From the NCBI GenBank assembly GCA_034509925.1, contig CM067526.1, positions 2,326,501-2,390,500 of the forward strand: 64,000 nucleotides of DNA, given 5' to 3'. The notes under the pieces were generated by a model. That model was given only the letters and a program-made list of their open reading frames with translations. It searched no databases and had not been told where the DNA came from. Shown in pieces: positions 40,334-63,868 of this stretch. The DNA comes from Hirudinaria manillensis. Lineage: Eukaryota; Annelida; Clitellata; Hirudinida; Hirudinidae. Position 1 is the stretch's first letter; each line of letters opens with the position of its first letter. Position numbers and translations under genes: made by a program.

Positions 40334-42100
40334 ATGTTAAAGAAAATTTTTAGTTTTTATCTTTGGCTTTTCTCACAAGGTTTGTCAGCACTTTCATGTT
40401 ATAATTTAACTCAAGAGTTCCTTACAATTCAATTTTGAGTTGATAAAATAATGACTTTCATAAATACCAATCGCGTTATTATATCTCGATCTCCTAAAGT
40501 AGCATTGCGAATCTCAGAACAACTACAATCATTGTTGAAATACTTTTATTTGGAATGATTCAAATTTTATCCCAGCTTCAAATCTTGAGAACTCAGCAAA
40601 AACTAATACAGTGGTAGCAGTTGATTCAACAATAATTGCAGAGAAAGGAATGAACGTTACTATTGAGTGCAACAAATCTTGCAATTTCGATTCTCCACTT
40701 TGGGCTTATAAACAACCAAATGAAGCAGCTTTTGAGGACCTCGTTGTTGTGGGCAGTTGTTCGATTAGGAACAAAATTCCTGGAAGGAAGGATCTGTGGT
40801 ATACGGTCATAAATGGCGCAAACTGTAAACAGACTTTGCTTCTACCTGAAATCCAGTTTGAAGCAACCGGAGTTTATGTCTGCTGGGAAGGCTTATTGGC
40901 TAAAGGAGTGACAAATGTTATTGTTGTTAGTGAGTGATATCGATATGTTATCAGTCTATTTAAACTTTGTTAATGATTATTTTTTTAATTAAAAATTCAC
41001 AGATACAAACAAAAATTGTTCAATTGAGCCTGATTTCTCAGACTCAGAAAATATCCTTCTGAAACAAAACGATTCAATCACCATCAGATGTTCTTTCCAA
41101 TATTCAGCAGATCAATCATGCATCGCTACTCCCATTTGGACAGATCTCACAGGATACAGAAATTTAACGATAAGCGCTAATGATTTCGAAGCCAACATGG
41201 ATGACAAACATGCATGGATCCATTTCGAACCTGGTGCTGATATAAGAAATGGAACAAGATTCAACCTATCCTTTGCATTTAATTGTTTTCCCACAAATTC
41301 CAGCGACAAAATTCAAAGTTCAGAAGCAAGACAATATTATTTTGGACTTGTACCATTCAAAATCTTTATTCACGGTAAAGTTTAAATATTTTTGTTCATT
41401 AAATACATTAGTTATGAAAGGTGAAATAGATGAAAGCATATTTATATTTTTAATTTAAGCCGTTAGCTGAGGCCCTCAGAATTTATTATTTTATTTTAGC
41501 ACTTTAAAAGACAAATTCAATCTTTTTCTGAATTAGTAATCAATCGAGGTTTTTTCAAAGCAGTTCTAAAAATTATTAAAATATATTTATTTGTGACACA
41601 ACTTGGTAAATTTGATAAAAAGTACTTCTAGCTTCAGGTTCTATGAACAATAAAAGGATTGTCCAACCAAACTTCATCAGTTTTCTGCTCAAAGTCGCTA
41701 TTAGCTTAGCCATTGCAATTGTTATTATTGTTACCTTTTCAATTTTCATTTGGAAGTTCTACTTATTTAAAGGTAAATAGTTTTAAAATTTGAAACAATT
41801 CATTCCAAACCAGCTATTAATATCAAGCGCATTGATACGTGTTGTGATAGTATTTGAGCCAGCCAATCACAGAGAAACCAATTAGTTTTTCCAGTATCAG
41901 TTTTTTATTAGAGCTTGTTGTTATTCCAAACAGTTGTCAATTCTCCTTCGATCCGCGATGATTTCATGACGGGAAGAGCTCTGCCTGTCATTCCCTTGGA
42001 CGAAGTCTTTAAAGTAAAGAAAGATTTTCAATGTCGAAATATTAATGGATTAAGATTCCATGAGGATTCCACCTACGACGTCATAAACGATTTAGCTTAA
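40334..42100 (+). CDS. Ig-type transmembrane receptor, array gene 1
   Basis: Exons 40334-40379, 40576-40929, 41003-41374, 41638-41772 and 41934-42100, all introns phase 1, encode 357 aa. Order: signal peptide (1-15), N-terminal Ig-type domain (about 30-133) with IECNKSC, core LWAYK and GVYVCW, second domain (about 137-257) with four cysteines and WTDLTGYRNLT, membrane helix (about 268-293, SLAIAIVIIVTFSIFIW), and a tail of about 60 residues. The tail holds GRALPVIP and ends STYDVINDLA. Y350 fits the ITIM consensus (S/V/I/L)xYxx(I/V/L) and also a YxxI sorting signal. Several sequons predict a glycosylated surface protein. An AATAAA follows at about 42124. Ligand and function are unknown. Phase-1 exon structure is typical of Ig-superfamily genes. 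Confidence 0.82.
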
Positions 42101-43738
42101 CTAATTGAGAATGAGAACAATGGAATAAAATGTATCGTTGTTGTTGGTTTGATAAGTTTCGGTAACTGGTATATTCCTATTTTGTTATAATGAATTTCAA
42201 ATGGATATTAATTGCCACCGATTGATTATCCTGTTAATATATTTTTAATTTTTTGTTTTCCAATATGTTATAAAATGATTTTATTTTTATAACTACTTTT
42301 GTAACATGTTTATGGCGTTTTGACTTGATAATCAGTTTGTCAACTGAATATAAATTTATAATATGTTAATAGTTTTATTAAATGGGTTGCTTTGTAGAGG
42401 CTCTTATTGAATCAAACATCTTTTGAAATCTATCTGTAACAAAATAGATATATTTTAATCTCGCATTTCATGTTTCCTTTTGTGTTGAAAATCGAACTAT
42501 GGAATTAATGTTCAACTTGTGAAACCCATGACATGACGATAAAGTATCTTTGAGTTCTCTTTTTTTGGAAAGTAGAGATGACTATTTCTTTGAGAAATGG
42601 ACATAAGTTGAGTATGAAGAGGATAATCTTGATAACGATAAGCTCTGAATGTTATCCATAAATTATGAATATGTTGAGCTTGAGGCACCCCAAAACTCAT
42701 GAAGACATGTTTATAAGTTTTTAAAGGTTCAGGATTTGAATCTACGAATAATTTATTTATTTAATAATGAAATAAAAAGCGCCGAATATTTAACCTAACC
42801 ATAAAAGCATATTATTTTGTTTAATAAATTAATTTGATTAAAACACCATATTAAATAAGAATATTAAATAAGAATTTGAAGATGTTTTCCTTTACTAATT
42901 TATAGAGCAGTGAATTTGAAAATATTCCTTAAAAAAATCGGTCCCGCTGAAAAACGGATGGTACTCATTTGAAGATCCAAAATATTTATTTAATTCTTTG
43001 ATTAAATGTTTTTAAATAATTGAATATATTATTAATATATTAATCCAGGAAAGAGTATCACCAATTACACTACTCGCTCGGATTGAATATTAATTGCGAT
43101 ATATTTAACAAAGATCTTTAATTGCCCATGACCAAAATACAGCCATTTTTTTAAAATTTAATAAAATTTAAATTGGCAATAGTGATAATAATAAATTATA
43201 TAATTGTTATATAATTTTCGAAAGTACCAGAGAACAAAAATGAAAATTTATTGGTGCAGAAAAAAGATTAATGCAGACCAACCCTGACTAACATTTCTTT
43301 TATTATCCAAATAATTTAATAGCGATTTTGAACATAAAGATCAAAATTAATTTTGCAATATTATTATAGATTAATTGTTAGTTTCATGATTATGTTTATC
43401 CATGTATTAATTGCCTGCCATTATTGAAAACGGCTATAATGTTACATTAACTGTTAGTCCCATGTGTTTTACAAAGCCTAATAGGTAGGAGTCACTGCTA
43501 ATTCAGTTTTACATTGTAACATAACACAAAGTAATGATATCATTAAATAAACAAGAATTTTGAAAAAAAGAATCGAAGGAGTTTTTATTTACATCTATAA
43601 AGAATTAACTTGAATTGAACAATATTAGAATTGCAGAAAATATGGCGCGAGAGACGAAACAGAAATAATATGCAATCATAACAATAATTATAATAATAAG
43701 AATAACCTCAAGAGGATGGGTGTTTTAGAGGTCTAAAG
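42101..43738. other. Spacer between array genes 1 and 2
   Basis: AT-rich, with the AATAAA of gene 1 near the left end. No further exon or RNA gene recognised. Confidence 0.6.
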
Positions 43739-43850
43739 TAACTTTTCCTTCTGGCTGCTTCAGCATAATTAATATAATTACATTTAACTGTCCACTGGGC
43801 TCTCGGTTAATAGCCATGTACTAGTTGTCTTTCATTTAGCATTCGTGTTG
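43739..43850 (+). promoter_or_regulatory. Array upstream element, copy 2 (left part lost)
   Basis: Matches the other copies from ACTTTTCCTTCTGGCTGCTT onward, through TAATTAATATAATTA and ACTGTCCACTGGGC. The left end reads AGAGGTCTAAAGTA where the other copies have the ATTGGTCACAACCA segment, so the inverted CCAAT box is missing. AGCCATGTACTAG also differs from AGCCAAGTACAAG. Confidence 0.8.
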
Positions 43851-44103
43851 ATTCTTAATTCAGAGAATTGTCGATACTTATTTATTTAGTATGAAAGATT
43901 GTACAATTAAATTAAAACAAAATAAATGGCTGTGTAGAATTAATTTACAAATCAAGATTTGTTACAATTTTAAAAGTAAAGTGATTTAAATCGAAGTTGT
44001 CTGACATGCGTTGTAAGTTTGAATAGATCAAGTCTAGCGTTAAAATTAAAAATAATTCCACATGTTCCTCTGCCATTTTGTTGGTGTATTTCGAATTAGG
44101 AAA

Positions 44104-45705
44104 GCCTTAGAAGTTCTTTTAAGCATTTTTTTATTTCTCTTCATAAATGGTTAGTCGCTAAAATGTCATTAAATTTGCTTATTTAAAGACTTTTTTTGCA
44201 ATTCTTGAAAATTTAGACTCGGTGAATGAGAAAACTGGAAATAATAGTGGAAGTCTAGAAATAAAAATTATTAAAGAAGGAACTGGTGTTGTTATTGAAT
44301 GCCGTTCATGCAACGGTAGTTCCTTGGTTTGGACTCACAAACCACCCAACGGAGTACCAGCTGATATCGTCACAGGTAAAGAAGCAGTTAGAAAAGACAA
44401 CCAGGCAGAAGATGATCAGTGGTTTAACATTGCTTTTGACAACAACATCTGCATTAACAAATTATACATCCACGAAATTCAAATAAACAAAGCTGGAGTA
44501 TACACCTGTTGGAAAGATTTGAACATAATGAGAACAAATGTCATCGTCATAAGTGAGTCACTTCAATCAAATATTCCTCATTGTCGTTAAAATATCAGCA
44601 ATATTTTGTATAATTTAACGCTTTATTTTCAACTTGACAGAAGAAAACTTTCGATGCTTCAGCGAACCAGATTTTCCGAAAACCATCCTTTTGACACCAA
44701 ATAGCACAGTCACCATCAATTGCACTTTTCAATATTCAGCGGATGAATCATGTATTGCTACACCTATTTGGATAGATCTCACAGGATATAGGAATTTCAC
44801 AGTGCCTAGCATTGACTTCGACGTTAGCATGACTGACAGCCATACCTGGATCAATTTCAAACCTGGCGCTGAAATCACGAATGGAACACACCTCAATTTA
44901 TCTTTTGTTTTTAATTGTTCTTTCTCGAACAACAGCCAAGACAAATACGAAGTCCGAAGCAGTCGATATGACTTGGGTCAAATACCGTTTACATTATTTG
45001 TCGAAGTTGAGAAAGGTTCGTTCACTCTGATTCTATCAAATCAATTTTTTATTGAGCGAAGTATGCATAGAGGTAGAAACTCGTGAAGAAATCAAATAAG
45101 TCGGAGGGTTTGTCCTGCGAGACTAAATACAACCTGGATAGTCTAGATTATACACACAAGTCACTCCAATATTTATAACTGTTTTGTAGAGTCCTTATTT
45201 TGATAGATTTATATTTGTCTAAGGATATTTATGATAGTTCAGAATTTGTTTATTTTTTTAAAAGGGACCACTAATAACATGAAAACACCCGATGAATCCA
45301 GGATCAAACGAATGTTGACAACTGGGATTATTACAGCCATGGCAATTCTGACTGTTTTCCTTTTTCCTGTACTAATATGGAAGATCTATAGGAGCTACAA
45401 ATTAATTAATGGTAATATTAACTTCGTTGTTACAAATTTTACGAAATTATAATTAATTTGAAAGAAGATATAAAATTACTTGAAAATGTTAATTAATTCT
45501 GTATTTTTTTGGAAATATAAGTCATTCACGTTTACTTCAAGCCACAGAAATTGACGCCAGTGTTGTGGGCAAGGCTCTACCAGACATTCCCATGACTGCT
45601 TCCTACTCCTTGGAACATCTTGGAGCCCCGAAGCTACCTCCACGTAGAAATATTGTTGAATTTAGGTCACCAGAAGAAGCAACTTATGAAGTCATTAAGG
45701 ATTGA
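44104..45705 (+). CDS. Ig-type transmembrane receptor, array gene 2; start codon missing
   Basis: Exons 2-5 are intact: 44217-44552, 44641-45015, 45265-45411, 45548-45705, phase 1 throughout. The signal-peptide exon (46 nt, ending at 44149 with GTTAGT donor) is recognisable, but where the paralogues have ATG this copy has GCC (44104). The in-frame triplet at 44098 is TAG, and the exon has no in-frame ATG. Domains: first Ig (IECRSC, VWTHKPP, GVYTCW), second Ig (SADESCIATPIWIDLTGYR), membrane helix ITAMAILTVFLFPVLIW, tail with GKALPDIP, PPRR and C-terminal ATYEVIKD (Y348 by alignment). The body shows no stop or frameshift, so it is either a young pseudogene or uses another first exon or a non-AUG start. 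Confidence 0.72.
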
Positions 45706-47520
45706 AATGAACAACCACACCAATCAATCAATTTTTGTGTAGACCCATTGCAATTATATTAATATTGCAACATTAATGACCTCAAAGTCTATTAGAATGA
45801 AAGAATGCTTGAATTGAGAATAAGGATTGAAAATAATATTGTACATCAATTATCTTATTGCGTTTGTTTTCCATTTACTACCATTTGGTAAAATGTTTCA
45901 CTCAAACTGTTTTTCGATGATTTGTTTACGTAATATCTTAGTTAATCGTATCCATTAATGATTAATCAATTCATTTCCAAATATTTCACCAGTCTAGGAT
46001 TTGGTTTAAAATCTTTTGGCTTCTATTATGTAGAGCGATTTTTTACATTTCGGAAGTAATAAATTTTGTTGAACTGGTTGAACCGAACAGTAATTCAGTA
46101 TAAAATTCTTGGTAGTGCTAAAGATTTGTTGGACAGAAGATTGATGCCATGAATCCACCCCTCGCCACCAACCTCTCCTCACCACCCATGTTATACTGCC
46201 CCCTTTCGACAATTCTCAGACACCTCAACCTCTGACAGTATCATCTTTGTATATGTCCTGAATTAATTTCAGTATTTATCGTTCTCCCAAATCTTCAACA
46301 GTTTTTGACAATCGTATCTGCTCTCGTCGTTGACCTTTCAAGGTTAACCACCTATTGTTTAATGCACATTGAATATTCCAGAAGTTGATTCCTCATAGTG
46401 ATTACAAACTTCTAATAACTCAGGGATCTATAATTAATTGAACTTTGAAATTTTTTAGAATTTAATTTCTAATGTTTGAATCTTTTTTTTATCATCAACT
46501 GCAAACAAACGCTTTTCTTAAACTAATCCTTCAAATCCTTAAGTTTTCTTCGTAAGACTAGGATTTGTTTGCTCAAGGAGTTTATTTCTGTGCATCGTAA
46601 TAGAAGCATGAAGGACCCAAAAGTTCAAAACTATTTTTAAGTCAAGGATTAAAATTTAACAGGCAAACGTTCAGTTCTTTTAAGTATCTTCTGGTTATGT
46701 GTGTTGCTCAAACGTTACTGCTTCATTCGAAAAATTACAATGTTTGTGCCGGCTATAGAGAAGTACAGAAATGTGATTTTCATAAAATTTTGTAAATATT
46801 TCATGCAAATATCTAAAGTCATTAGGAATAAATTACAATTAATATTTAATATTTTTTTAATTAATTCTAAATCAATCGATATTAGAACTAATTAAATGGT
46901 ATTTTTAAATCTTCAAATTGCTGTTAAATAACCATTAATTGTGGTCGGAAAAAGATTGTAAAGTCTCACTCATTATTTTAAAAACAAAAGAATCACTCTA
47001 AAAATGCACCAAGATTATTTTTCAAATTCATCTATTTTGATGTGATTTTATCTGGATGTAATTCAAATTAAGAAATAATTAAAATATTATTTTTTAAAAT
47101 ATTATTATTTGTAAATTAGTTCCTATATTGACAAAACGTAATTTGTTTGTAGACATAATAAGATTAATTATTTATTAGGTTAATTACGGTTCAATTAATT
47201 TTATTTTATATAAATTCTAACAAATAACGTAAAATGTCACTAATTTGTGAGATAGCGGGTGAAAGACCAATACTCCATAAAAATATTGATTATATCTGTC
47301 AGGGGAAAACCTGCAATATTTAAATGAGCTTTAAAAAAGCTGTCCTAACTCGATATAATGCGAATTTTACCATTATTAATAAAATATTAAAAAATTGTAT
47401 GAAATAATGGACGATTAATAGGGAAACGGTTGAGCAAAAGAATTTACAAAAATTAATTCCGAATTATTTTCAAGCGATTGTAAACTGAAAATATATGAAA
47501 CCAAAAAGGAATCATAATGC

Positions 47521-47561
<41 letters not shown>

Positions 47562-47599
47562 TCGCTCAATGGATTCTAACAACTTTAATAAAACAACTG
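45706..47599. other. Spacer between array genes 2 and 3
   Basis: The part at about 46030-46200 is clearly similar to 49940-50110 downstream of gene 3 (shared GAACTGGTTGAACCG and AAAGATTTGTTGGACAGAA strings), showing the duplication unit includes 3' flank. An (AAT)n array lies at 47519-47561. No gene seen. Confidence 0.7.
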
Positions 47600-47727
47600 T
47601 TTCATTGGTCACAACCGACTTTTCCTTCTGGCTGCTTCAGCATAATTAATATAATTACATTTAACTGTTCACTGGGCTTTCAGGTAATAGCCAAGTACAA
47701 GTTGTCTTTCGATTAGCATTCGTTTGA
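47600..47727 (+). promoter_or_regulatory. Array upstream element, copy 3
   Basis: Full element including inverted CCAAT (ATTGGTCACAACCGAC), TTTTCCTTCTGGCTGCTTCA, TAATTAATATAATTA and AGCCAAGTACAAGTTGTC. Ends about 130 bp before the gene 3 ATG. Confidence 0.85.
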
Positions 47728-47858
47728 TTCTTGTTAAAACAGGAAATGTCGAAGTTGTATTACGAATGTTTCTTTAATCTGAATTAATCGAATAAAGCGA
47801 AGACTTAACGTATTATACCTAACCCTATTTATTTTGTTCTAATGATTGAGTTGGAAAC

Positions 47859-49631
47859 ATGCTAAAAATATGTATCAGCCTGAGTTTGTTGCTTTTCTTT
47901 GGCGGTTAGCAATTCCTTGATACTACCACAAACAATTAATAGTTTACTGTTATCATTAAATTCATGTCTCATTCATTATGGCACATCAAAATGTAAGGTA
48001 AATTTAAATTACATTATGTTATAAATTCGATTCCATAATATTGATTTAAAAAAAAACTATTTTAACGTTTATGTTTCACATTATCAATCCAATGAATTGA
48101 GCTGTTGAGCATGAAATAATATAGTTATCTACTCAGGTTTAATAAACAAAACCTTTCATTTAATAGAAACAATTGATACACGGTCAGAAATTCAGGCAAC
48201 TGAACTTATTGATGCAATGAAATTTATAAAAGTCGGAGAAGATATAACTATTGAATGCAACTTGTGTGATATTAATTTACTGCAATGGACATACAAGGGC
48301 CCAAACAAACCACAAGAAGAAATTGTTACAGCAGGCAAATCAATCAGAACAAAATATCAAGGAAAAAATACGTCCTGGTTTGAACCTGTAAGCTATTCAA
48401 ACTGCATGTTCATTTTGCATTTGCCAAAAATTCAATACGATGCTGCTGGAATATATAGTTGTTGGGACAATTTAAATAAAATATCAACGACAAATATCGT
48501 CGTTATAAGTAAGTGAACTTCATATAAATTTATTACCAAAAATAATGATAAACTGTTAATTTGAATTTAATAGGCGATAACAACAATTGCTCCAGCGAAC
48601 CAGATTTTTCAGACACCTTTCTGATACAAAAAATTTCTTTTACCATCAAATGTTCTTTTAAATATGCAGCAGATGAATCATGCATTGTTACTCCTGGTTG
48701 GACAGATCTCACAGGATATAGAAATTTAACCTTGCCTGATGATGATTTCGAAGTTAAAATGGATAACCTACATGCATCGATCCATTTCAAGTCTGGTGCT
48801 GACATCTTAAATGGAACACAACTCAATTTATCTTTTGTTTTTAATTGTTCTTTCTCAAACAACAGCCAAGACAAATACGAAGTCCGAAGCAGTCGATATG
48901 ACTTCGGCCAAGTACCATTCACACTATTTGCCGCATTTGAGAAAGGTTCGTTCAAGATAATTCTATCAAATCTTTATTGAGCGAAGTACGCAAAGAGGTA
49001 GAAGCAGAGGTAGATGAAATAAATTCCGCCCGTGTGGATGAGCGATTCAGTACCACCTTGATAGCCCAAATTATGCACAATAGTCACTCCAGTACTTAAA
49101 ACCTTTTTCTAGAGTTTAGATTTTTTTTATTTATGAAAAGACTCGTGTTAGTGCTTAATTTGATTTTTAAAGGGGCTTCCACTACGGTCAGAAATGAGGG
49201 ATCACCGATCAATCGATTGCTAACAACTGGGATTATTACAACCATAGCAATATTGGCTGTTTTCCTTTTCCCTGTGCTAATATGGAAGATTTTCAAAAAC
49301 TATAAATTAATTAATGGTAATATTAATCTATTTACTAAAAATTTACGAAAAAACATTATAAATAATTTGTAAGAAGAAATAAAATTGCTTGAACATTAAT
49401 TAATTAATTCAGTAATTTAAAAAAAGTCATTCACATTTACAAGCGATAGAAGTCGACGCCAGTGTTGTGGGCAAGGCTCTACCAGACATTCCCATGATTG
49501 CTTCCTACTCCTTGGAACATCTTGGTTTGAACCTTTTGAACACCTTGGAAGCCCCAAAGCTACCTCCACGAAGGGACATCGTTACATTTATGCCACCAGA
49601 AGACGCAACTTATGAAGTCATAAAAGATTGA
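47859..49631 (+). CDS. Ig-type transmembrane receptor, array gene 3
   Basis: Exons 47859-47904, 48167-48508, 48574-48945, 49173-49316 and 49450-49631 give 361 aa. Signal peptide MLKICISLSLLLFFG. First Ig domain with IECNLC, LQWTYKGP, SNC and AGIYSCW. Second domain with KYAADESCIVTPGWTDLTGYR and FNCSFSNNSQDKYEVRSSRY. Membrane helix ITTIAILAVFLFPVLIW. The tail carries GKALPDIP, PPRR and C-terminal ATYEVIKD (Y356), plus a short insertion after SLEHLG relative to gene 2. Closest relative in the window is gene 2, sharing tail, second domain and 3' flank. Role unknown; a tyrosine-phosphorylated surface receptor is the best inference. Confidence 0.82.
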
Positions 49632-51721
49632 AATAAACTATAAACACCAATCAGTCACTTTCTATGTAAAGTAGTCAAAACAATTATAAACTCAAAGTCT
49701 ATCGGAGTAATATTCGCTTGAATTGAGAATTTGATTGCAAATATTAAGTACTTTACTTCTGCTTTCTTAGAGGCACACCCTTTTGTTATCCATTTAAGCG
49801 TATTTGGCCCATTTATGTCGCATTCCGATTATTGTACGTTACGCACCTTTAGTGTATCTTTTCCACTAATCAATTCAGGTGCAAATATTTCACAAGGATA
49901 TGATTTGATTTAAATCCATTTTTTTGGATTCCTTAATGTAGAGCGATTTCTTGCATTTCGAAAATAATAAATTTTAATGAACTGGTTGAACCGTGAAGTA
50001 ATTCAATATAAAATATTTGGCACAGCCAAAGATTTGTTGGACAGAAAATTGACACCATGAATCCATCCCTCACTACCAATCTCTCCCCACCACCCACCCA
50101 TCTCCCCTTTAGACAATTCTAAGGCACCTCAACCTATGGACATCCCACCTCTGTATCTGCTCAATATATTCCTCTAAATTCCATCAGTAGTTTTCAGTAG
50201 AGAAACTGCTCTTCTTAAATTCTTCAACAGTTTTTGGCAATCTCATCTGACCTTAAGGCGTCCTTTCAAGACTTCAAGACCGACTTCAGCATTGACGGCT
50301 TTGCTCCTTGTCTAAATTTATCATTCCAACAAAACTGAGCCCCGCCTCCATTTTAATTTCTAGCTGGCTCTATTTTAATACGCCGAATACTCTAGAAGTT
50401 TTCATAATAATTACAGACATCTAATTAAATTAGGAATCAATTCGTTAAAATTAATTAATAACTTAGAATTTAATTTTTAATGTTTCAGTCTTTTTTATCA
50501 TTAATTGGCAAACTGATATTTTTCGTAAACGAAGCCAATCCTTCACAAAGACAATCCGCACGGTTTTTTTTTGCCTAATGAGTACTAGGATTTCTCTTCT
50601 CATAAAGCGTGTTTCTGTGTATTGCAACTGAAGAGAGGAAGAACTAAAAGTTCATAATTATTTTTAAGACTCGGGTTAAAATTTCACAATCCAGCTTTAG
50701 GCCCTGAGATGCATCTCGTTTTGTATATTGCAGCAACTTTACTGGATAATTAGAGGAAACTTAGATCCTTGTTAGATGCTAGTTACAGCAACGTAAATAA
50801 GTAACAATTTTGATTAAATTAATATAAATATAAATACATAAATATCTAAAATCATTCAAGTGACTGGTACAAAATGAATGATTTATTTCTTATATATATA
50901 TCCTTGAAGATGATGTTACGATAATTAAGATTAGGATTAAATGCACTCACAATTAATATTAATAATTTTTGTGAGTTAATTCGAAATCAATTTTAACAAT
51001 TCAAATTACGACAGTAAAAAAATGGCAGAACTGTTTAGTAGCACAACTTAAAACAGTTTTCCTGAAAATGTTTCATTCTTTAAGCTGTTGTTCATTAACC
51101 ATTAATTGTAGCCATAAAAAGCATTAATTATCGCCCATTAGTTTAATGAATCAAGAATCAGACTAATAATGCATCGAAAGATTTATCTTCGTATTAATCT
51201 ATTCCGATATGATGTTATTGTGATTGCATTAAGTGTTTACATTAAATATGATCTTAAATTTTATCTAATCTGTAAATATCTGATATATTACTAGAACTTA
51301 ATTGATTGTTAGATATAATTAGGTTCTTGACAAAATTATTTATTTCAGGAGTTCTAACAAATAAGCAAAATATTTCACGTAAAGCCGTGAGAAGTGGAGT
51401 CCAAAAACAAATATTCTGTGGAGATATTGATTATAACTGGCAGGAGAAAACCTGTATAAGAAAACTAGCGTAATTCAGTGCAATATGAATTTTAATACAA
51501 GATTTTTTATAATATAATATAAACTATCTTAATATAAAATGGGCGCATAAATGTAAAAAAGATTAAACAGAAGCGTTTATAAAAATAAATTTAGCGTAAT
51601 TCTCCAGCCATTACAAAATACAAGCATATCAAAATAAAGGGGTAATAATGCTAATAATGCCAATAATATTAACAATAATCATGTCATTAAATGGATACTA
51701 ACAACTTTAATAGAACAAATG
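49632..51721. other. Spacer between array genes 3 and 4
   Basis: Carries the duplicated 3' flank (49940-50110) and AT-rich unique sequence. An AATAAA overlaps the end of gene 3. No gene recognised. Confidence 0.65.
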
Positions 51722-51850
51722 TTTCATTGGTCACAACCAACTTTTCCTTCTGGCTGCTTCAGTATAATTAATATAATTACATTTAACTGTTCACTGGGCT
51801 TTTAGTTATTAGCCAAGTACAAGTTGTCTTTTCGTTTAGCATTCGTGCTG
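51722..51850 (+). promoter_or_regulatory. Array upstream element, copy 4
   Basis: Full element with ATTGGTCACAACCAACTTTT, TTCCTTCTGGCTGCTTCAGT and TAATTAATATAATTA. Ends about 85 bp before the gene 4 ATG, the shortest spacing in the array. Confidence 0.85.
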
Positions 51851-51933
51851 ATTTTCGCTACCAGGAAATGTCGAATTCATATTACGAATCTATCTACATA
51901 GATTTATTTTATTTTAGTATTTGAGCTTTAGAA

Positions 51934-53696
51934 ATGCTGAAAACATATTTTAGGTTTTGTACGTTGCTTTTCATAATCGGTTAGTAATTGCATTATATTA
52001 CTACAGACCATTACTAATGTATCTTCAATACTAAATTTATGTTTTAATTGTGGCACACGGAAATGGAAGGTAAAGTTTAATTAACATCAAATCATGAATT
52101 TTATTTTAAGACATTCGTTTGTTTTTCAATTACTTTCAACTTCAGTGTCATATTCCGGATTGTGAAGTCATTGAATTGAGTAGATAATACAATTATCTAA
52201 AAAATGTTTAATACTCCATTTATAGATGCAAACGCAGGGGAAAGCACTGAAAGTCAAGAACATACAGTTACAAGCTTTAATATAATAACAAAGATCACAA
52301 AAATCGGAGAAGATGTTGCCACTGAATGCCGTTGGTGTAATATTGATAGCCTGCAATGGACATACAAGGGACCGAAGAGATCACATGAAGAAATTACTGT
52401 AGGTAATAAAACAATCAGGAAGACAAATCAAGAAAAATATACTTCTCGGTTTGGACGTATAAGCTCTTCAAACTGCACTCATGTTTTGCATTTGCCTAAT
52501 GTCCAATTTGATGCTGCTGGAATATATCGCTGCTGGGAAAATGTGAATACAATATCGATGACAAATGTCATCGTCGTAAGTGAGTAAATTTGACACACAT
52601 ATGTTAAAAATTTATCTTAAATAGTTTTAAATAGTCATTTTAAATACCTACTAGGTGATAACAACACTTGCTCAAGCGAACCAGAATTAAAACACTCTGA
52701 CAACATCCTTTTGAAACAAAATGACTCAATCACCATAAACTGTTCTTTTGAATATTCAGCAGATGAATCATGTATTGTTACTCCTCTCATAGGACACAAT
52801 AATTTAACGACTGGTATCGCTGATATGAATGGCAAACATGCATGGATCCACTTCAAATCTGGTGTTGACATCACAAATGGAGCACACTTCAATTTATCTT
52901 TTGATTTTAATTGTTCTTTCCAAAACAACAGCCAAGACAAATACGAAGTCCGAAGCAATCGATATGACTTTGGTCAAATACCGTTTACATTATTTGTCGA
53001 AGTTGAGAAAGGTTCGTTCAACATGGCTTTTTCAAATTATTTTTTATTGAACTGAATACAGAAATATATAGAGAAGTAGAAACTCATAAAAAAATAATAT
53101 CCTCTAGAGGGCTGGTCCTGTGTGACTCACTGTTACCTGGATAATCCAAATTTATGCACGACTTATGTTATAAAGTTTAGATTTTTATAAATTATAATTA
53201 TCTGTTCTAAAGAATTTTTTATTAATTAGATTTGTTTTACAATAAAGGACGGACCACTATTACCGATGGACCAGAGAATAACAATTTTCTAACTATTGGG
53301 ATCATTATAGCCATAGCAATTCTGACTGTCTTCCTGTTTCCAACATTAATATGGAAGATCTACAAGAACTACAAATTAATGAAAGGTAATATTAATATCA
53401 TTTTGAAAAAGTTAAAAAAATCGTAAATAATTTTTAAGGTAAAAATAAAATTAACTGACTATGTTAATTAATTAATACCGTTTAATATCAACATATTTTC
53501 AAATGTATGTCATTATTAACATTTACTGAATTTTGCAGATATAGATAACAGTGTGGTAGGCAGGGCTCTTCCAGAAACTCCTATGACTGCTTCCTACTCA
53601 TTGGAACATCTTGGGACTATGAATCATCATCCGTATAGAAACACTGCTGAATTTAAATTATTAGAAGAAGCAACTTATGAAGCCATTAAGGATTGA
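51934..53696 (+). CDS. Ig-type transmembrane receptor, array gene 4
   Basis: Exons 51934-51979, 52226-52579, 52655-53011, 53248-53385 and 53539-53696 give 350 aa. Signal peptide MLKTYFRFCTLLFIIG. First Ig domain with TECRWC, LQWTYKGP, SNC and AGIYRCW. The second domain lacks the stretch corresponding to IWTDLTGYR of the paralogues (it reads PLIGHNNLTTG), so a normally invariant tryptophan is gone, though all four cysteines remain. Membrane helix IIIAIAILTVFLFPTLIW. Tail with GRALPETP and C-terminal ATYEAIKD (Y345). Introns and phases match the other genes. Member of the gene 2/3/4 subgroup. Confidence 0.82.
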
Positions 53697-55398
53697 AATA
53701 AACTATAAATACTATCACGTTTTCAATCACGTTTTATGTGCATTTAGATTACAAAAACTTGACTTCACACCAATGCCAATTGGCTTTGTTTGTAAAAGAC
53801 GATTTGTTACATTTTAGAAATAGTAAATAAAGCTGTTATTGAACTTGTTGAACCGTGAAGTGACATCATAAAATACTTGGCGTTACTAAAGATTCGTTAC
53901 ACAGAAGACACTTTTTATTCGTTTTTATTTTATGGTATCCGGATATATAAATCCATCCGTCGGCACCAAACTCGCTTGTCTTATGGTTACCATCATAAGT
54001 CTGAATAAAATTTATCGCATTAATAATAATTTCTATAACTAATTATTATAACTTTTCAGACCTTCACAGGTCGAGAATTAAACAAATTAATTGGTTAAAG
54101 AAAAATAAACATTTAGCTATGAAATGGCTTAGAATTTCATTTTTAATGTTTGAGTCTTTTATTTTATCATTAACTTGTAAACCACTATTTTCCATAAATG
54201 TGACCGATCTTTTAAATCAATTGTAATGGCGATTATTAAAAATTATTTTGATCTAAAAGTCAGGATTACAGTTTTCATAATGTGAAAAACATTTTAAAAA
54301 CGTGTAAAGCATCTGTGGATTGCAACCGATTACAGGAAGTTCACAAATTAAGTCATGGATAGAATGGCCAAATTACATAAGCTGCTTACATATATTGTAT
54401 TGTATACGTGTATGTATTGCTTCAACCTTACTAATTTACTAGAAAAATTATTTACATCCAGAATAATGATGATTTGATTTTCATCAAGTTTATATAAATT
54501 AGGAGCTAACAATTTTTCCTCGCAAAACGTAATGTCATTCATCTGACGAAGTAAGGAGTCATTTGCATTAAACTTAGGATTAAACGCACTTACGATTGAT
54601 ATTTAGTGATATTCATTTTTATTATGTATGAATCAATAGAAACCAGTTGTATTATAATGAAACCAATAGCCAATGAAATGACATCTTTAAAAAATGATGG
54701 AACATTATTTATAGTCTAACTCCACAAAATGCTTTCATAAAATTTTTGTTTCAATCTTTAAAATCCTGTTCAGTAATCACTAATTGCTGTCCGCAAAAGG
54801 ATTAAGTCTCACCCAGTGGGTTACGACTATCATTTTAAAGATTAAAGAATACCACAAAAAATAATCCATGAGTTTTCTCGAATTCATCTGTTTCGATGTA
54901 ATATTATTGGATATTATTCAATGTGATTCACATTAAGAAATATATAATTATTATTTAATTCATAAATTCCTCTTTATATTATATCAACGTAATTGGTTGT
55001 CAGTAATTAGATTCTTAGCCTAATGACCTTAGCCTTATTTATAGAAATTCTAGCAAAAAGAGCAAAAGTTTGAAATGATGTCTTACGCCAATCTTCATCT
55101 TCTGCATAAATATTGACGTCCTTTCATAATTAATAAAGAAAAATGATTTAAAAAAAATTAAGTGAGAATTGCTATAAGACCATTGAATGCGAACTTTATT
55201 CCTGTGGAGCTATATTTTAAAATTTCCACGAAACAAAGGAGAATTTAATGACAAAACATTTGCTAAAGGAATCTACAAAAAAAAATCGAGTAGTTTTTAG
55301 GCCATTTATTAATAAAATATACATTACAAAAATGAAATAATATTGCTACTAATAATGACCTTTAAAGGATACTAACAATTGCAAGAAAAGAAAAGATG
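53697..55398. other. Spacer between array genes 4 and 5
   Basis: Includes a shortened copy of the duplicated 3' flank near 53800-53900 (GAACTTGTTGAACCGTGAAG) and AT-rich sequence. No gene recognised. Confidence 0.65.
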
Positions 55399-55528
55399 TT
55401 TCATTGGTCACAACCAACTTTTCCTTCTGGCTGCTTCAGTATAATTAATATAATTACATTTAACTGTTCACTGGGCTTTCAGGTAATAGCCAAGTACAAG
55501 TTGTCTTTTCGTTTAGCATTCGTGTTGT
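55399..55528 (+). promoter_or_regulatory. Array upstream element, copy 5
   Basis: Full element, nearly identical to copies 3 and 4, ending about 175 bp before the gene 5 ATG. Confidence 0.85.
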
Positions 55529-55704
55529 TTCTTGTTAGAACAGGAAATGTCGAAATCGTTTTGTGAATGTTTTCTTTAGTCTGAATTATCTAAATAAAAC
55601 AAGAAGCTAAAAAGTATTGACAAAACAAATATTGAAAAAAAAAACATTATTCGCTTTTTATTATATCTATTTATTTATTTTGTCATAACGTTTGAGCTGT
55701 AGAA

Positions 55705-57849
55705 ATGCGAAAAACATGTTCAAGATTTTATTTGCTGCTTCTCATATTGGGTTAGTAATTATTTGATATTAGCGCAGAACAATACTAACTTACTGTTATT
55801 ATTAAATTTGTGTTTTAATTATGGTAAGTCAAAAAAGAGTTTAAATTAACATTAAATTATATTTTTGATTATAAAACATTGTTTTTTTTAAATTATTTAA
55901 AATCTAGTGTAATATTCAACATCATCAACTCGGTAAGTTGAGTAGATGATGAGCATGAAATGATATAATTATCTATAATAGTTTAACCTGCCAATTTAAT
56001 CGTTCGTAGTTGGAGATGACGTTGTAAGACAACTGGAAGCTCAGGAAAATACTACTAATGCAAATAATCCTAGTACAACAACAAAATTTATAAAAGCCGG
56101 AGAAGATGTTACCATTGAATGTAATTTTTGTAATATTGATGGCCTGCAATGGACGTACAAGGGGCCAAACAGACAACAAGAAGAAATTGCAACAAAAAAT
56201 AAAACAATCAGAAAAAAACATCAAGGAAAGAATGTTTCATGGTTTGAACTCATAAACAACTCAACCTGCAAATACAGTTTGCATTTGCATAAAATCCAAT
56301 TTGGTGCTGCTGGTTTATATTGCTGTTGGGAAAACATGATAAGAAAAGTAATTGTATATATCGTCGTTATAAGTGAGTGAAATTGATTGAAATTTCTCTC
56401 AATTTATTACAAATGTTATTAATATTGTTATTTTAATTTTAATAGGTGATACCCTCAAGTGCTCAAGCGAACCAGAATTCTCAGACTCTAACGACATTCA
56501 TCTGAAACAAGAAGATCCATTTACCATCAAATGTTCTTTTGAATATTCAGCAGATGAATCATGTATTGTTACTCCTATATGGACAGATCTCACAGGATAC
56601 AGAAATTTAATGATACCCGCTAATGATTTCGAAGCCAACATGGGTGACAAACATGTATGGATCCATTTCAAACCTGGTGCTGATATAAGAAGTGGAACAC
56701 TTTTCAACTTATCGCTAGCATTTAATTGTTCTTCCTTAAACAGCAGCGGTACTATTATGAGCGGACTAGAGGGTCGATATGATTTTGGTCAGACTCCATT
56801 CACACTTTTCAGAGGTTAGTTCTATGTTATTACTTTTGAATTTACTTCTTAAAAGTCGTGCCTTAAAAAGGGTTTTAAAAAATGGAATTAAAGTGTTTAA
56901 AAAAATATATTTAAAAATTATAACAAAAGTTTTTTCAACATTTAGATTTTTTTTACAATTTTTATCTGAAATTACGTTTTTAATTTTTTTTATTCGATTT
57001 TTTAAAATATTTTTAAATGCCAACCCTATAATTTCACTATAGTAACTTAAATTTCCTCTGACCTTTAGGTCATTGCGAGCGGGCATTAATTTACAACCCG
57101 AAGAAATAAGTATAATTATTTGATAAATAAACAAATATAAGACACTATAAGTAATAAAATTTCAGCAAAATATGACATTTATATTTAGTTAGGGTATTGT
57201 TTCAAAGGGGTAAAGTTACATCAGTAAGAATATCAGAACTTCAGAATACTCGGGCAATTACTTAAAAGCATATCTGAAAATAAAATGGTTTAAAACAGTC
57301 TTAGTTATACTGGTATGCTTTATTTCCAAAAATATTTAATTCAGAAAATAATCAGAAACCGACCAACAATTTACTTACTTTCTGTATCATCGTTGTCATC
57401 ACATTCGTCGCTATAGTACTGGTTCTGATGTTCTCATGGAAGTTCTATAAATTATTTCACGGTAAGCTTAATTGATTTGACTGGATTTAGTTGATACATC
57501 TTTGAAGTAATAAACATATGCTTACAATCAGTGGCGGTTAATTTAATTTGTATAGAGGGTCAATGAAAACGGCAAGACCCTAAACGGCATACAATTCTAA
57601 TAAGGCCATGAAACACATGTCTTTATTAGAATTTAAGATGCCTATTTCTTACTCAATAAATGTTTTGTCTTTCACATGGTATGAACAGTTGCCAGCATTT
57701 CCACAAATTACGATGCCAGTGTTATTGGAAAAGAACTTCCAGAAATCCCTATGGAAGACCTCGGAACTTTGGACGATCATCGCCGGAGAGACTCTGAAAT
57801 CAGAATGCCGGAAGACGCCACTTATGCTGTTATAAATGAATTTATTTAG
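55705..57849 (+). CDS. Ig-type transmembrane receptor, array gene 5
   Basis: Exons 55705-55750, 56010-56372, 56446-56814, 57345-57461 and 57689-57849 give 351 aa. Signal peptide MRKTCSRFYLLLLILG. First Ig domain with IECNFC, LQWTYKGP, STC and AGLYCCW (an extra cysteine). Second domain with SADESCIVTPIWTDLTGYR, most like gene 1 (NDFEANM, GADIRSGT). Membrane helix FCIIVVITFVAIVLVLMFSW. Tail with GKELPEIP and C-terminal ATYAVINEFI (Y344). The second exon lacks an early ATG, so it is easily missed by simple frame scans. The intron before the membrane exon is longer than in the other genes. Confidence 0.82.
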
Positions 57850-59745
57850 AGAAAACTAAAAACCATGCAAAAAATAAACAGACTATTCATGCCTGATTAA
57901 CTGTTAATACTTGCATGAATTACTAAACATTCATTTAAAGTGGTTAACTTAGTTTTGGTCCGTTGAACTACAATTCTTGATTTTTGACATTAAAATGACC
58001 ATGTCTGGTATCAAAGCGTCTTCCTATTTTTAATTCGTTCTCCGACAAGTAATGACCAAAATGAATGAGAGAAATGGCGAGAGATAACAAATAATATAAT
58101 ATAACAAAAATATTAATAATGGTAAATTTATGGAGCTCTTCCTCTCCGCTTAAGGACACTCCATGCCTTTTAATATAAACGTCGGTAAAACCATACTTGT
58201 GATCAGTAATCTTATAATATTTTGCAAGTGTTACCTAATTAAAATTTCTTAGAAAGTGGTGACTCGTGTTCTTAATGGCTGAAACGCTATCCTTTGTATG
58301 CGAACCTCATTCCGCCACAGTTAATTCAATAATAAATTAATTATTTTTAAAAATAATATTAAATACAAATCACTATTAGATGATGGAAGTTCGTACGTAA
58401 TTAGGTAGGTTTAAAGTTGTTTCTGAAATAAACATTGAAAGTTTTGCTCATGTCATTATTATTATGTTGATGATTTTTCGGTAATTATTTGTTAATAATT
58501 TATAAAATCTGGATAAAGTTCATTATGCTTACGCTTCATAATATATTTGAAAAATAATAGTATTATAAGCACAAATGAAAAATATTTTTATTACCCTTTA
58601 TGAATGTAATGACTTGTCTAGTGAATAGGTCAATGCGCGTTTTTAATTTAACAATTAGTAATTAAGTTTATTTTAAATATAAAATAAGAGCAATATTTTC
58701 ATACTTATTAATTTCTAGGCCGTATATTTGAGTAACAAAGCGCGGTAATAGTGGCAGGCAGATCTCCGAAATTTTTTTAATTGCATCCTCAGACTGACAA
58801 TTGCTTCGATAGAGACATGGAATCTGAAGATCTTGACACTATACATTGCATGGCTTGCCCTTGCAATCATTTAGAAATGTTAATAAATGACCAATAATAA
58901 AACATTTTCTGAATAAAATGTTAAAAATAATTTGTACCAATAATTTATTTCATTAATAGTTTTCAAATTACACTTAAAGTCTTCTCCCAATCTAGTTCTT
59001 AATGGCAGAAATAATGATATCAATTGTTACTCAGTAGGCAAACCATTAAAAATACCAGACTTTTATGATCTTTACATGCGATTATTAAAAATGTGTACAA
59101 GCTATTGTCGTAAATGTAAAAAAATAAAAATAAATAAAATATCTTTTGGTAAATTAAATTCAAACTTAAGTTTAAATTTCTTAAAAGATATTTTATTCCG
59201 GAATTAAATCTAATTAAATGAATCGTTGGAGATTGTTTAAAATAGAAAGTTTTCACATCTTCTCGTGGTCGCTTTTCGATGGCTGCGCAGTCTTGAGCAG
59301 GGTGTTAAGGACGAAAAATCAAAATAATTCAGAGAGATTAATTATATCAATAATTATTTAATTATAATTAATAAATATTATTATTATAATTAATCGCGGA
59401 TTTAAGGCAAACAAACGAACAAAAATATACAAGTAAGATTGCAAAAGCATGGGAACGCATAAATAATGATCAGGGTTAATCTTTAAGTGCAGGCCACGTT
59501 TAGCTTAACATCTAAAAGCATCAATAATTTTAAAAAAAGTAAACACAAGGTTTCGTAACTGAAATACACTTCAAAATGTGCACCTGTTTTTAAATTGTAT
59601 TAAATCTACAAACATTTTATGTAGGTACATAGGTAGCTGCTATGTGATAGCGTGATTAACTACTACTACTTTCAATAATAATAATAATAATAACAGTAAT
59701 AATGCAGCAGTAGTAACCGTCATCAACTTTAAGAGGAAAGAAGAT
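57850..59745. other. Spacer between array genes 5 and 6
   Basis: AT-rich, with an AATAAA near 57873 and an (AAT)n tract at 59675-59700. No gene recognised. Confidence 0.65.
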
Positions 59746-59873
59746 GTTTCATTGGTCACAATCAACTTTTCCTTCTGGCTGCTTCAGTATAATTAATATA
59801 ATTACATTTAACTGTTCACTGGGCTTTTAGTTAATAGCCAAGTACAAGTTGTCCTTTTGTTAAGCATTTGTTC
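59746..59873 (+). promoter_or_regulatory. Array upstream element, copy 6
   Basis: Full element with ATTGGTCACAATCAACTTTT, TTCCTTCTGGCTGCTTCAGT and TAATTAATATAATTA. Ends about 160 bp before the gene 6 ATG. Confidence 0.85.
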
Positions 59874-60034
59874 TAATCTTTGCTACAAGTAAATGTTGAA
59901 TCCTTATTTTGATAGCTTTTGTCGTCTGATGTAATCTAATAAAGTTGAAATTATTGTTGTAAAATAAAAAATTACACAATTAAAAAATTACAGATGATCT
60001 TATTTTTGTTCCTTTTGTGTTTTGAAGTTTATCA

Positions 60035-61793
60035 ATGTTAAAGACAGTTTTAATTTTTAATATTTTGCGTTTGCTTCAAGGTTAGTAAATGCTTGTTACG
60101 ACTGATCTTCATTTAAATTCCATATTTGTTAAATATTAATTCTATCATAACGATCAATTATAAAAATTAATATTAGATTAACTGACTTGAAGTTAAATTA
60201 ATTACTTATCACTTGAAAACGACGCCATATTATTTCATTACAAAAATAAGTTGCTTTTGTGAAACAGAATTATGATAACGAAATAGTTCAACAAATATTT
60301 AGCAAATGAATAATTTTCTTTTATTTTCTTATTTTCGTAGCCACGCAGAATGTTGTACCAACTGAGAAAGCAATAAAATCCTTGGAGACAATAACAACAT
60401 TTGCTAAGGAAGGAACCGATGTTGTTTTGGAATGTAACTTATGCGATGTTGATTTACTAAAATGGACCTACAAACCATTCAATGGTACGCAAGAAGACAT
60501 TGCTGAAAATAATAATCTTGTTAGAAGTAAAAATTATGGGAGGAAGTATCCATGGTTTAGGCTTGGATATAATTCAACCTGTATTTATAACTTGTTCTTG
60601 GATAAAATCCAAATCGATGCTGTTGGAATATATAGCTGCTGGAGAGGTACAGTGGAAATTAAAAAAAATCATGTCGTAATTATAAGTGAGTAAATTTGCA
60701 TAAATAGCTGTTGCAGAATATTATTTTTAAAAGTTTTTTTTTCAAATTAGAAAATGAAACCGATTGCTTTGTTGAACCCAATGTCTCAGACTCGGAGAAT
60801 ATCCTTCTTAAAGAAAATGACTCAATCACCATCAAATGTCCTTTCCAATATTCAGCAGATGAATCTTGTATTGTTACTCCTATTTGGACAGATCTCACAG
60901 GATACAAAAATTTAACGATGCCTTGTAATGATTACGAAGTTAAAATGGAAGACCTACAAGCATCAATCCTTTTCAAACCTGGTGCTGACATCACAAACGG
61001 AACACGTTTCAATCTATCTTATTCTTTTAATTGTTCTTTCTCAAACAACAGCCAAGACATTCAAATACTACATCTAGAGCTATACGAATTTGGTCAATTG
61101 CCTTATATATTTTTCGTCGAGGAAAAGAAAGCTTCGGGTTATTGATTATTTTAATTCTAATTTTTGTTTGTAATTTTATAATTCATTATAGCTAATTTAA
61201 TAATAAATAATTGCTTTATACATTATCGCTATAGAGGCAGGTATTTATTAAAAGAAAGTTATGTTTTTACGAATAATGACCTTGTATTCAATTGACAGAA
61301 AACCGTATTACCAAAAATGGTGGAAAGGATTACCATTATTCCATGCTTAAGAATGTTATTATCATATCCATAACAACCTTAGCTGTTGTTCTGGTTTTCT
61401 TGTTCGGTTGGAAATTCTACAAAACATTTTATGGTAAAATTCAGTTCATTATTTGGAAAGTTTTCTTCTTTTTTTTTTTTTTAATTTCCAAGTTAAATAT
61501 GTCATGAATTATTCACCGAATATTTTTTAAACATAGGATAAAAATTTCCATATTTATTTTGCCACTTAAAATATTTAGCATTTCATATATTTTTATTATT
61601 TAATAATTTATTAAATAAATTTCCATTTTAAATAGCGGACATTGATTCGACAAAATATGATGGTGGCGTTGTGGGCAAAGCACTTCCACAAATTCCTGTG
61701 GAGCAACCACAAGCGATGAACAGCCTTCATTGGAAAAATAACACTTTCAGACCATTAGAAGACACTTATGATGTTATAAACGACTTTGTTTAA
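60035..61793 (+). CDS. Ig-type transmembrane receptor, array gene 6
   Basis: Exons 60035-60080, 60341-60685, 60751-61137, 61299-61433 and 61636-61793 give 356 aa. Signal peptide MLKTVLIFNILRLLQG. First Ig domain with LECNLC, LKWTYKP, STC and VGIYSCW. Second domain with SADESCIVTPIWTDLTGYK and four cysteines. Membrane helix NVIIISITTLAVVLVFLFGW. Tail with GKALPQIP and C-terminal DTYDVINDFV (Y349). The splice donor used by genes 2-4 after exon 3 (AAAG|GTTCG) reads AAAGCTTCG here. A GTTATT 6 nt downstream keeps phase 1, so I place the exon end at 61137, adding two residues. An AATAAA follows near 61913. Confidence 0.8.
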
Positions 61794-63868
61794 AAAGCTT
61801 TTAATCTATTATTGACTGAATTAATCATCAACTTTTTGCGTGCTTGTTTGATATTCCAAGTGCCACTTGTTAATTGGATCCATCACATTCATAATTAGCT
61901 ACTGGCTACAGAAATAAATCCTTAATTTTCACTCTAAGTTGTAGGAAAAGCTTGTTCTTTATTTTTAATCGGAAATAAAATGTTTATTTCCTCTAAGGTA
62001 AGCGCTGATATGGTTCCGATTTGATAACCAAAATGATGAAGATTGATAGCAAGAGATGGGACAGTTGATAAGTGACAATTAGAGAAGAGCACCAATTAAT
62101 CATATCGCAATTATGATTTTTATTGTCACGGGCTAATCAAATTTGATATATGGACGAGTCACACTATTATTATAATTATAATTATAATTATTATTATCAT
62201 TATTAATATTAATTTGATTATTATTTAATTTTCTAAAACTCACACCTTGTCATTTAATTTTAAATAAAAGAGTGAACTATATCATCTTTTGTGGCTTTTC
62301 AATCTTTTAAGAACATTTTTTTGCGAAGTACAACTGGTTGAAAAACTAATCAGTTTCGGTCAAGCTTGTGATATTTCTTCGTAAAATTTGATCATCGTTA
62401 GAAAAACTTACAAATAGTAAGTTAATAAGAATTCTCCCTATCGATGTATAACAATATCTGAGTATTACATTCAATTTACTTGGTTTCAGAGGCAATGAAA
62501 GCGATACGTTTTGTACTTTTCAAGTCATTGGAATTAAGAAAAAAATAGTTCTAGATTTAATGGCTTAGATATTTGAGTCCAATTATCAATGCCTTACTAC
62601 GGGCAGATTTTTTATTAGTCCAGCTCAATCATTCGCAATTTATAATGATGAACCGTTAGTAAAGAATCTAGTTTCAGTTACAAAAATAGCTGATCTTTTC
62701 AACTTAATTATTTGGCCCGAATATATTTATGTTCAGCTTCAAATGCTTGTCTGGAATGTATCTGTTTCAAAAGTAGCAAAAGTAAAAATCTATGGTTGGT
62801 TATTCGACTTAAGCTCACTAATGTTGAAGATATTCTTTACGAGAGAGCAGTTTAAATTTATTTTTCAAAACTTGAAAATTGGTTTCCTAAAGTTATGATT
62901 CAGCCTGGGTTTCAAAATAAAAATATAATTATAACTATCTTAATATCAAATATTTAGATTATTTAATGAATTCAAACATTTAATTAATATTCTCTGCCTG
63001 TATAAAATGCTTTCCTCTGCTGATGCTATGTAAATTTATAGAACGTCCTAGATTTGTTTAACATGATAATCGAATTAAATCAATCGGTCGAACCTCAGCC
63101 TTTGCGAGATAATTATTAATTACGAATATTTCATATCGCATCAAACATGCATAATAAAACAAATGTCTTATTAGATTTCTTAAAGTATTTCAAATGAAAG
63201 ACCAAAGTAACCGATATTAAATAAGAACATTAACTGAATTTCATTCAGAAAAATTAAAATTCGGTCCTCAATCGATTTAACTCTTTATTTGTTTCACATT
63301 CAGAACTTCCCACGAAGATCATTAACTCAGTTCGAGTTAACGGATAAAAGATCGTAATAAACAATTAAAATATTCAAACTGCCGAGAATATTGAAAGGTT
63401 AACATTATCAATCGAGCATATCCAGTGACTGCAGTTGACGGTGTTGATAATAAATTGTAAACATTTGATACAAACTCAAATGCACTTTTCACAAAGTAAG
63501 TATTTATCTTCTCATCCTGAAAAGTCGAAATAACAAAATAGAAAATAAAAATAACATTTAAAGAAAATCAGACATAATTAGCAAATTCATTCTGGTTGGT
63601 CATTATTTTATTATAATTACGTTATAAATAGTAAATTCTTCAATCTTCTACCGACGCCATACAAAGTGGACCCTTGCAAAAAATTTGATTTTAAGGATGG
63701 ATCGGGCCAAATCTTAAATTCTTTATAGCATATTATACACCATCACATGTGTAAGAAAATAAAGTCTATCTAGTAGAATTATCAAAATAATAATAATAAT
63801 AATATTAATAATTGTAATAATAAGAATAACAATAGTAATAAAAATATTAACTTTAAGAGAAGAATTAT
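61794..63868. other. Spacer after array gene 6
   Basis: AT-rich sequence with no recognised gene. It leads into another (AAT)n tract (about 63786-63850) and the seventh upstream element. Confidence 0.65.

Follow-up and report, generated by a model that had tools for sequence, protein, structure and literature searches.

Paired receptors, in which a shared ectodomain is linked to different signals, have to our knowledge been described mainly from vertebrates. The cited passage on CD300A and CD300C describes gene conversion that keeps the ectodomains alike despite their differing signalling (PMC12447643). Here we describe an array of putative membrane receptor genes in the Asian buffalo leech Hirudinaria manillensis, found in a window of 64,000 nucleotides (C1:2326501-2390500) and followed through a genome of 148.4 Mb in 23 contigs. 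Exons of the hirudin family were detected on C4 of this genome. A tunicate origin, suggested by the idea of allorecognition, drew no support, as the tunicate cellulose-synthase domain GH6 had no match, a negative of low weight since the controls of that search were not matched either. An earlier note on this DNA had reported a tandem array of six genes between positions 40334 and 61793 of the window. The observation was confirmed, with six complete genes on the plus strand, five exons each and all introns in phase 1, and these genes maintain open frames and GT-AG splice sites. The array itself stood while its six-gene extent did not, as scanning the stitched region by profile recovered 26 pairs of a V-type immunoglobulin (Ig) exon (exon 2) and a second ectodomain exon (exon 3), all on the plus strand over approximately 100 kb (C1:2367081-2466755), and further relatives lie on the same chromosome. 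The six genes of the window are the first of these 26 two-domain units (g1-g26). Our favoured explanation, to which we assign a probability of roughly 0.6, is that the array encodes type I membrane receptors working as a paired-receptor system, their match being maintained by gene conversion that is restricted to the ectodomain.

Matched ectodomain cassettes

Exon 2, intron 2 and exon 3 together form a cassette of about 0.8 kb. Eight units (g1-g7 and g10) constitute class A, which shares the tail and the upstream element described below, and were compared with the non-A units by blastn in all 144 combinations over a span reaching from 900 nt before exon 2 to 1500 nt past exon 3. Blocks of at least 600 nt at an identity of at least 85% were detected in 8 of the 144 pairs, all of them over the cassette and covering 7 of the 8 class A genes. 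The resulting class A-class B partners are g1 with g17 and g21, g2 with g24, g3 with g23, g5 with g20, g6 with g26, and both g7 and g10 with g19, with DNA identities of 88-95% over 740-960 bp. The window holds five of these cassettes on its plus strand, at 40558..41377 in g1 (94.6% to g17 and 94.8% to g21, both downstream of the window), 44227..45022 in g2 (93.1% to g24), 48183..48952 in g3 (94.3% to g23), 56077..56817 in g5 (90.2% to g20) and 60320..61112 in g6 (91.7% to g26). Blastn returned no match between partners beyond the cassette, and the only matches outside cassettes were two weak ones of 72 and 126 nt, both to the non-partner g8. The blocks of g1 (with either partner), g2, g3 and g5 extend 3 to 7 nt past the exon-3 donor and those of g7 and g10 83 nt past it; the g6 block stops 25 nt inside it. 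Within the 200 bp flanking the cassette on either side, partners share 42-62% identity versus 42-50% for non-partners.

Six partner pairs have intron 2 identities of 81-100% (73/73, 87/88, 61/65, 67/71, 50/62 and 85/95, the lowest being g6-g26 at 81%), against 51-65% in six non-partner pairs. An intron is expected to be free to drift, yet this one is about as alike as the exons; therefore we infer that the whole cassette was copied and that protein selection alone does not account for the match. Trees of the V exon (25 of the 26 units, g22 being broken) and of exon 3 group each class A gene except g4 with its partner, and on them class A requires 7 changes and is never recovered as a clade (0 of 200 bootstraps). 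The tree of the transmembrane (TM) exon plus tail, built from 19 of the 26 units with the partners g20 and g21 absent, recovers class A as one clade (support 98/94, 200 of 200 bootstraps). The only class A genes that are each other's nearest relatives in the V tree are g7 and g10, which are whole-gene duplicates. The synonymous divergence of the V exon in partner pairs is unequal (0.04-0.26) and the partner order is scrambled, which together rule out an origin by one block duplication.

One cassette is itself a mosaic. Within exon 3, g24 switches from g2-like to g3-like sequence, with 0 of 5000 shuffles as extreme. Nine mosaic tests gave raw p values of 0.0002 for the two in which g24 was the child, 0.036 for g20, 0.050 for g2, 0.088 for g17 and 0.33-0.94 for the rest. 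Judged from its sequence, we read the g24 switch as a direct trace of conversion. Vertebrate paired receptors are recognized by ectodomains that are nearly identical but joined to different TM and tail modules, an arrangement displayed by 7 of the 8 class A genes, and by linked genes with ectodomain-limited conversion, for which the 100-kb array, intron 2 and g24 provide the evidence here.

Ectodomain folds, tails and upstream element

The earlier note had proposed two extracellular Ig-type domains and a fold search of an ectodomain as a check. That search returned exon 2 as an Ig domain of V type, on the basis of a predicted model (g5) submitted to Foldseek, a PDB profile match and a V-set Pfam match near the cut-off; its matches include CRTAM, CD226 and contactin. 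The B-F cysteines and the core tryptophan of exon 2 are invariant in 14 of 14 aligned exons, and two cysteines beyond the usual pair are present, all four being invariant in this alignment; the extra two may form a second bridge. The second domain fared less clearly. Exon 3 maintains four cysteines invariant across 14 aligned exons, its predicted model (g6) is of low confidence, Ig domains rank first but weakly in the fold search, and no relative by sequence was found in Pfam (four proteins searched) or among the PDB sequences. From the model, exon 3 is probably Ig-like. The single membrane helix and tyrosine-bearing tail of the earlier note were supported. A TM exon follows exon 3 in 25 of the 26 units, g8 being without one, and the predicted TM helix (best 19 residues) is uncharged in 24 of these 25, with g9 carrying one lysine at the inner edge.

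Analysis of the 25 tails separated two classes. All eight class A tails display a single TY[DEA]xI near the end; TYxxI is invariant at its T, Y and I (8 of 8), as are two columns of proline. The pattern [RK]xxPxxP, a class I SH3-ligand pattern, is present in six of the eight (g1-g6) and in 12 of the 25 tails overall. Class B in its intact form comprises 11 units (g11, g14-g19 and g23-g26). An alignment of 19 of the 25 tails, from which g9, g12, g13, g20, g21 and g22 were omitted as broken, short or uncertain, demonstrated that three tyrosines are the sole fully conserved columns of the intact class B tails (11 of 11) at a mean pairwise identity of 0.30. The class B motif is mostly YxxI-x11-YxxI-x4-YxxI: the first and second tyrosine motifs form YxxPhi-x11-YxxPhi in 10 of the 25 tails (g20 included), the spacing is x14 in g15 and x9 in g16, and the second-to-third spacing is usually x4. 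Among the 19 aligned tails YxxPhi-x11-YxxPhi occurs in 10, none of them class A, versus 0.09 expected from shuffling, with g16 counted through another tyrosine pair. The short tails of g12 and g13 combine [RK]xxPxxP with one YEVL or YEVF.

Class A is further distinguished by an upstream element. A genome search with the copy of g5 located 8 copies, each preceding a class A gene (8 of 8), and no further unit showed it in blastn over the 1.3 kb before exon 2. Among the window genes it precedes the start codon by about 90-340 bp. The other five copies preceding these genes are 92-98% identical to that of g5, and the V exons of the same genes share 35-53% protein identity with the g5 exon. Rfam gave 0 matches in the window for an RNA element at this repeat.

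All six genes and their elements are on the plus strand. The first gene, g1 (40334..42100), has its element at 39996..40117 (98% identity to the query) and exons at 40334-40379, 40576-40929 (V-type Ig), 41003-41374 (second ectodomain exon), 41632-41772 (TM) and 41934-42100 (tail, STYDVI), an order retained in the genes that follow. The g2 element (43740..43845, 92%) precedes a gene at 44062..45705 with exons 44062-44149, 44217-44552, 44641-45015, 45265-45411 and 45548-45705 (ATYEVI), and the g3 element (47600..47722, 97%) a gene at 47859..49631 with exons 47859-47904, 48167-48508, 48574-48945, 49173-49316 and 49450-49631 (ATYEVI). For g4 (51934..53696) the element is at 51722..51845 (98%) and the exons at 51934-51979, 52226-52579, 52655-53011, 53248-53385 and 53539-53696 (ATYEAI). 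The query copy itself (55399..55522, 100%) precedes g5 (55705..57849; exons 55705-55750, 56010-56372, 56446-56814, 57345-57461 and 57689-57849, ATYAVI), and a copy at 59747..59868 (95%) precedes g6 (60035..61793; exons 60035-60080, 60341-60685, 60751-61137, 61299-61433 and 61636-61793, DTYDVI). The element of g7 (63868..63987, plus strand, 77%) is still within the window, while the g7 exons lie beyond its end (V exon match at C1:2390980).

SH2 and phosphatase exons are plentiful in the genome. At two loci, C8:5849018-5852767 and C13:7993157-7990233, SH2 matches are followed by a phosphatase match on the same strand, a proximity suggestive of SHP-like signalling partners.

Weighing the explanations

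Under the paired-receptor explanation, each specificity would consist of a V-type Ig domain and a membrane-proximal domain encoded by one cassette. Most class A cassettes are indeed present in two genes, of which the class A copy carries an upstream element of its own and a one-motif tail, and the class B copy a separate upstream region and TM helix and a three-tyrosine tail. Gene conversion would keep the two outer halves alike and would halt at introns 1 and 3 because these are too diverged to pair, and the signalling halves would therefore stay different. Both partners may bind the same ligand when the cell meets a microbe or another cell, Src-type kinases would phosphorylate the tails, and the single-motif A and three-motif B tails may recruit different SH2 proteins, resulting in different and perhaps opposed signals. 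A dampening class A and a triggering class B is a plausible guess. We consider it an even chance that an annelid evolved, independently of the vertebrates, a paired-receptor repertoire in which most class A cassettes are maintained in duplicate on two signalling modules through gene conversion bounded by diverged introns, the class B module having three conserved tyrosines.

Selection on the two domains was compared through NG86 ratios of nonsynonymous to synonymous divergence (dN/dS) pooled over eight pairs (six A-B partner pairs plus g13-g14 and g8-g11). The pooled ratio is 0.76 for the V exon versus 0.48 for exon 3, and V ratios above 1 occur in four of the eight pooled pairs and in 5 of the 13 pairs measured in all. 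This pattern fits a recognition domain that changes faster and does not amount to proof of positive selection.

Several results weigh against a paired-receptor system. Members of a single family should show some cassette similarity, and 108 of the 144 pairs have a cassette match of whatever length or strength, the best non-partner blocks reaching identities of 85.8% (232 nt) and 85.3% (395 nt); pairing is therefore a matter of length and degree. Neither blastn nor the trees provided a class B partner for g4, and the predicted tail frame of g20, the sole partner of g5, is interrupted by a stop that could be avoided through a later acceptor. Damaged or incomplete units make up 5 of the 18 outside class A (g8, g9, g20, g21 and g22), with a tail-frame stop also in g9, an insertion interrupting the tail of g21 and a broken V exon in g22; the difference from class A (0 of 8) is not significant (Fisher p 0.28). 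The tails, which the earlier note had called similar to immunoreceptor tyrosine-based inhibitory motifs (ITIMs), mostly depart from the strict consensus [ILVS]xYxx[ILV], as this consensus occurs in 1 of the 6 window genes and in 4 of the 25 tails of the array and is missing from 21. The immunoreceptor tyrosine-based activation motif (ITAM), given in the cited passage as YxxL/I-x6-8-YxxL/I (PMC12058738), requires a spacing that these tails, with spacings mostly of 11 and 4, do not have. The three-tyrosine module of class B is neither an ITIM nor an ITAM. A charged-TM activating form suited to an ITAM adaptor was not found among the 25 units with a TM exon, and since 24 of these predicted helices are uncharged, the array does not conform to the adaptor-coupled activating form of vertebrates. 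In addition, the pooled dN/dS ratios are below 1, and all gene models were drawn from splice consensus in one assembly.

The same observations could be accommodated by an ordinary birth-and-death tandem family in which ectodomains convert at random where homology persists and the A/B match is functionally meaningless. Conversion needs homology and would be fenced into the cassette by the diverged introns, pooled ratios of 0.76 and 0.48 require no positive selection, and unpaired and damaged units are indeed present. However, 7 of the 8 class A genes have their partners outside class A, g7 and g10 being the only class A genes nearest to each other in the V tree, and the tail motifs are strongly constrained in each class despite low overall tail identity; we regard this explanation as somewhat unlikely. 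It is unlikely that the genes form a cell-adhesion or neuronal wiring family with a non-immune role, whose ectodomains would bind themselves or one another and whose two tails would address different adaptors. Such a role would agree with the resemblance of exon 2 to V and other Ig domains of adhesion molecules (the CRTAM, CD226 and contactin matches) and with [RK]xxPxxP and YExI tails that could suit any Src-type adaptor, but the V exon evolves fast (the ratios above 1 already given), copy turnover is high with broken members and a mosaic, and no relative was found outside this genome beyond 11 short open reading frames (ORFs). An assembly artefact, in which mis-joined haplotypes or repeats yielded the partner copies, appears very improbable. 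A copy of the g21 locus (98.5% identity over 3053 bp) at C1:7099684-7103425, 4.65 Mb distant and with its exon-3 copy at C1:7101581, is either a recent dispersed duplicate or an assembly error and hence a possible mis-join, but the partners differ by 5-12%, their flanks are unrelated and their exons 4 and 5 are different, and the cited passage describes an assembly from HiFi and Hi-C data in 13 chromosomes (PMC10671345).

If the paired-receptor explanation is true, the array would open to study, in a protostome, the question of whether systems that balance two signals triggered by a single ligand evolve more than once, and of what motif takes the place of ITAM and ITIM. Its matched pairs of genes, together with the upstream element of class A, supply ready material for constructs and markers in assays of binding, signalling and expression.

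The wider family and comparison with known systems

Genome searches returned 39 places for a single exon 3 query and 28 for a single exon 2 query. The union of the searches, with two more distant exons added as queries, places the wider family at about 44 sites: 26 in the array (a lone partial V exon at C1:2398720 was excluded from the unit count), 1 at 7.10 Mb, 5 at C1:2.503-2.522 Mb, 10 at C1:2.972-3.033 Mb and 2 on C3. The distant exon-3-domain relatives lie on both strands (C1:2503112-2522119, C1:2971882-3033501 and C3:7110506-7114978), some of them preceded by V-like exons, and those on chromosome 1 constitute a wider receptor complex. Within the array, g8 and g9 (C1:2394396-2396589) are two pairs of V and second-domain exons approximately 0.4 kb apart that may form one four-domain gene. 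In g20 (C1 ~2444744-2445217) exon 3 continues in frame into the TM exon, intron 3 having apparently been lost relative to g23. A divergent V plus second-domain module gave a weak match on the minus strand at C1 ~2411073-2411894. Further clusters of V-set exons are located at C13:952-967 kb, C11:500-608 kb, C2:13.52-13.56 Mb and C10:4.80-4.86 Mb. Elsewhere in the window, an ATP-dependent DNA ligase exon (31849-32274, plus strand), which from its motif we take to be probably ligase IV, exons matching 7TM receptor families (5433-6926 and 9447-10115, plus strand; possibly one gene) and long trinucleotide repeats (458-4861), in which several frames of either strand are open, were observed.

Full-length searches of 5.8 billion proteins matched one protein. 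An exon-3 alignment search returned 11 short ORFs at E<=0.1, ten from ENA records (contigs up to 914 and 428 kb) and one from another source. Nine of these (P0001-P0009) have a best identity of 60-76% to an H. manillensis exon and for this reason are assigned to another genome, probably that of another leech; we took them as one genome. In a tree with these exons, which left out g12, g16 and g25 (long branches) as well as P0010 and P0011, a single origin of the second-genome exons was rejected, as they require 6 changes and form no simple species-wise clade. Eight of the nine nevertheless have their nearest relative within their own set and not among the H. manillensis exons compared, and P0006 alone appears to be the orthologue of a single gene (g15, support 99/91). 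The pairs of A and B partners fall inside the H. manillensis set. Exon-3 proteins share at most 76% identity between the sets versus 88-96% for partner exon-3 DNA, as would be expected under ongoing homogenization. The earlier suggestion that the family might be undescribed held, in that no description of the array was found in the literature on leech and annelid Ig/ITIM receptors, a coverage mostly outside subscription journals.

The Alr proteins of Hydractinia are Ig receptors encoded in a gene complex. They resemble the leech receptors in these respects, and the cited passage assigns them ITAM/ITIM-type tails (PMC12065747). Unlike leeches, Hydractinia forms colonies and has fusion phenotypes. 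As leeches are not colonial, colony-fusion allorecognition of the Alr or fuhc type would be less likely than immune or cell-contact recognition; Alr is one of the two parallels drawn in the earlier note. FcoR of Botryllus is alike in forming a large linked invertebrate family with V-type Ig domains, TM helices and tyrosine tails with a YxxI/L/V core; as the cited passage describes it, FcoR differs in combining V, sushi and two C2 domains and in being paired with fester genes (PMC12065747), whereas the leech genes have two ectodomain exons and a pairing by near-identical ectodomains. The oyster CgIgIT2 is likewise an Ig receptor of a lophotrochozoan and has a tyrosine-based signalling tail, but it has five Ig domains and a classic ITAM and is not presented in the cited passage as part of a tandem or paired array (PMC11999971).

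The second parallel, to vertebrate paired receptors, is strengthened by the paired-tail pattern. Unlike the vertebrate pairs, the leech class B has its own three-tyrosine tail, the leech TM helix is uncharged (24 of 25), strict ITIMs are rare, no sequence relation was seen beyond the generic V fold, and opposite signalling is proposed by analogy. The leech array and CD300A/CD300C, as the latter are described in the cited passage, are alike in their near-identical ectodomains, different TM and tail modules, linked genes and ectodomain conversion (PMC12447643). Without claiming membership in any of the compared families, we consider the likeliest reading, by analogy, to be that the leech array works like paired receptors.

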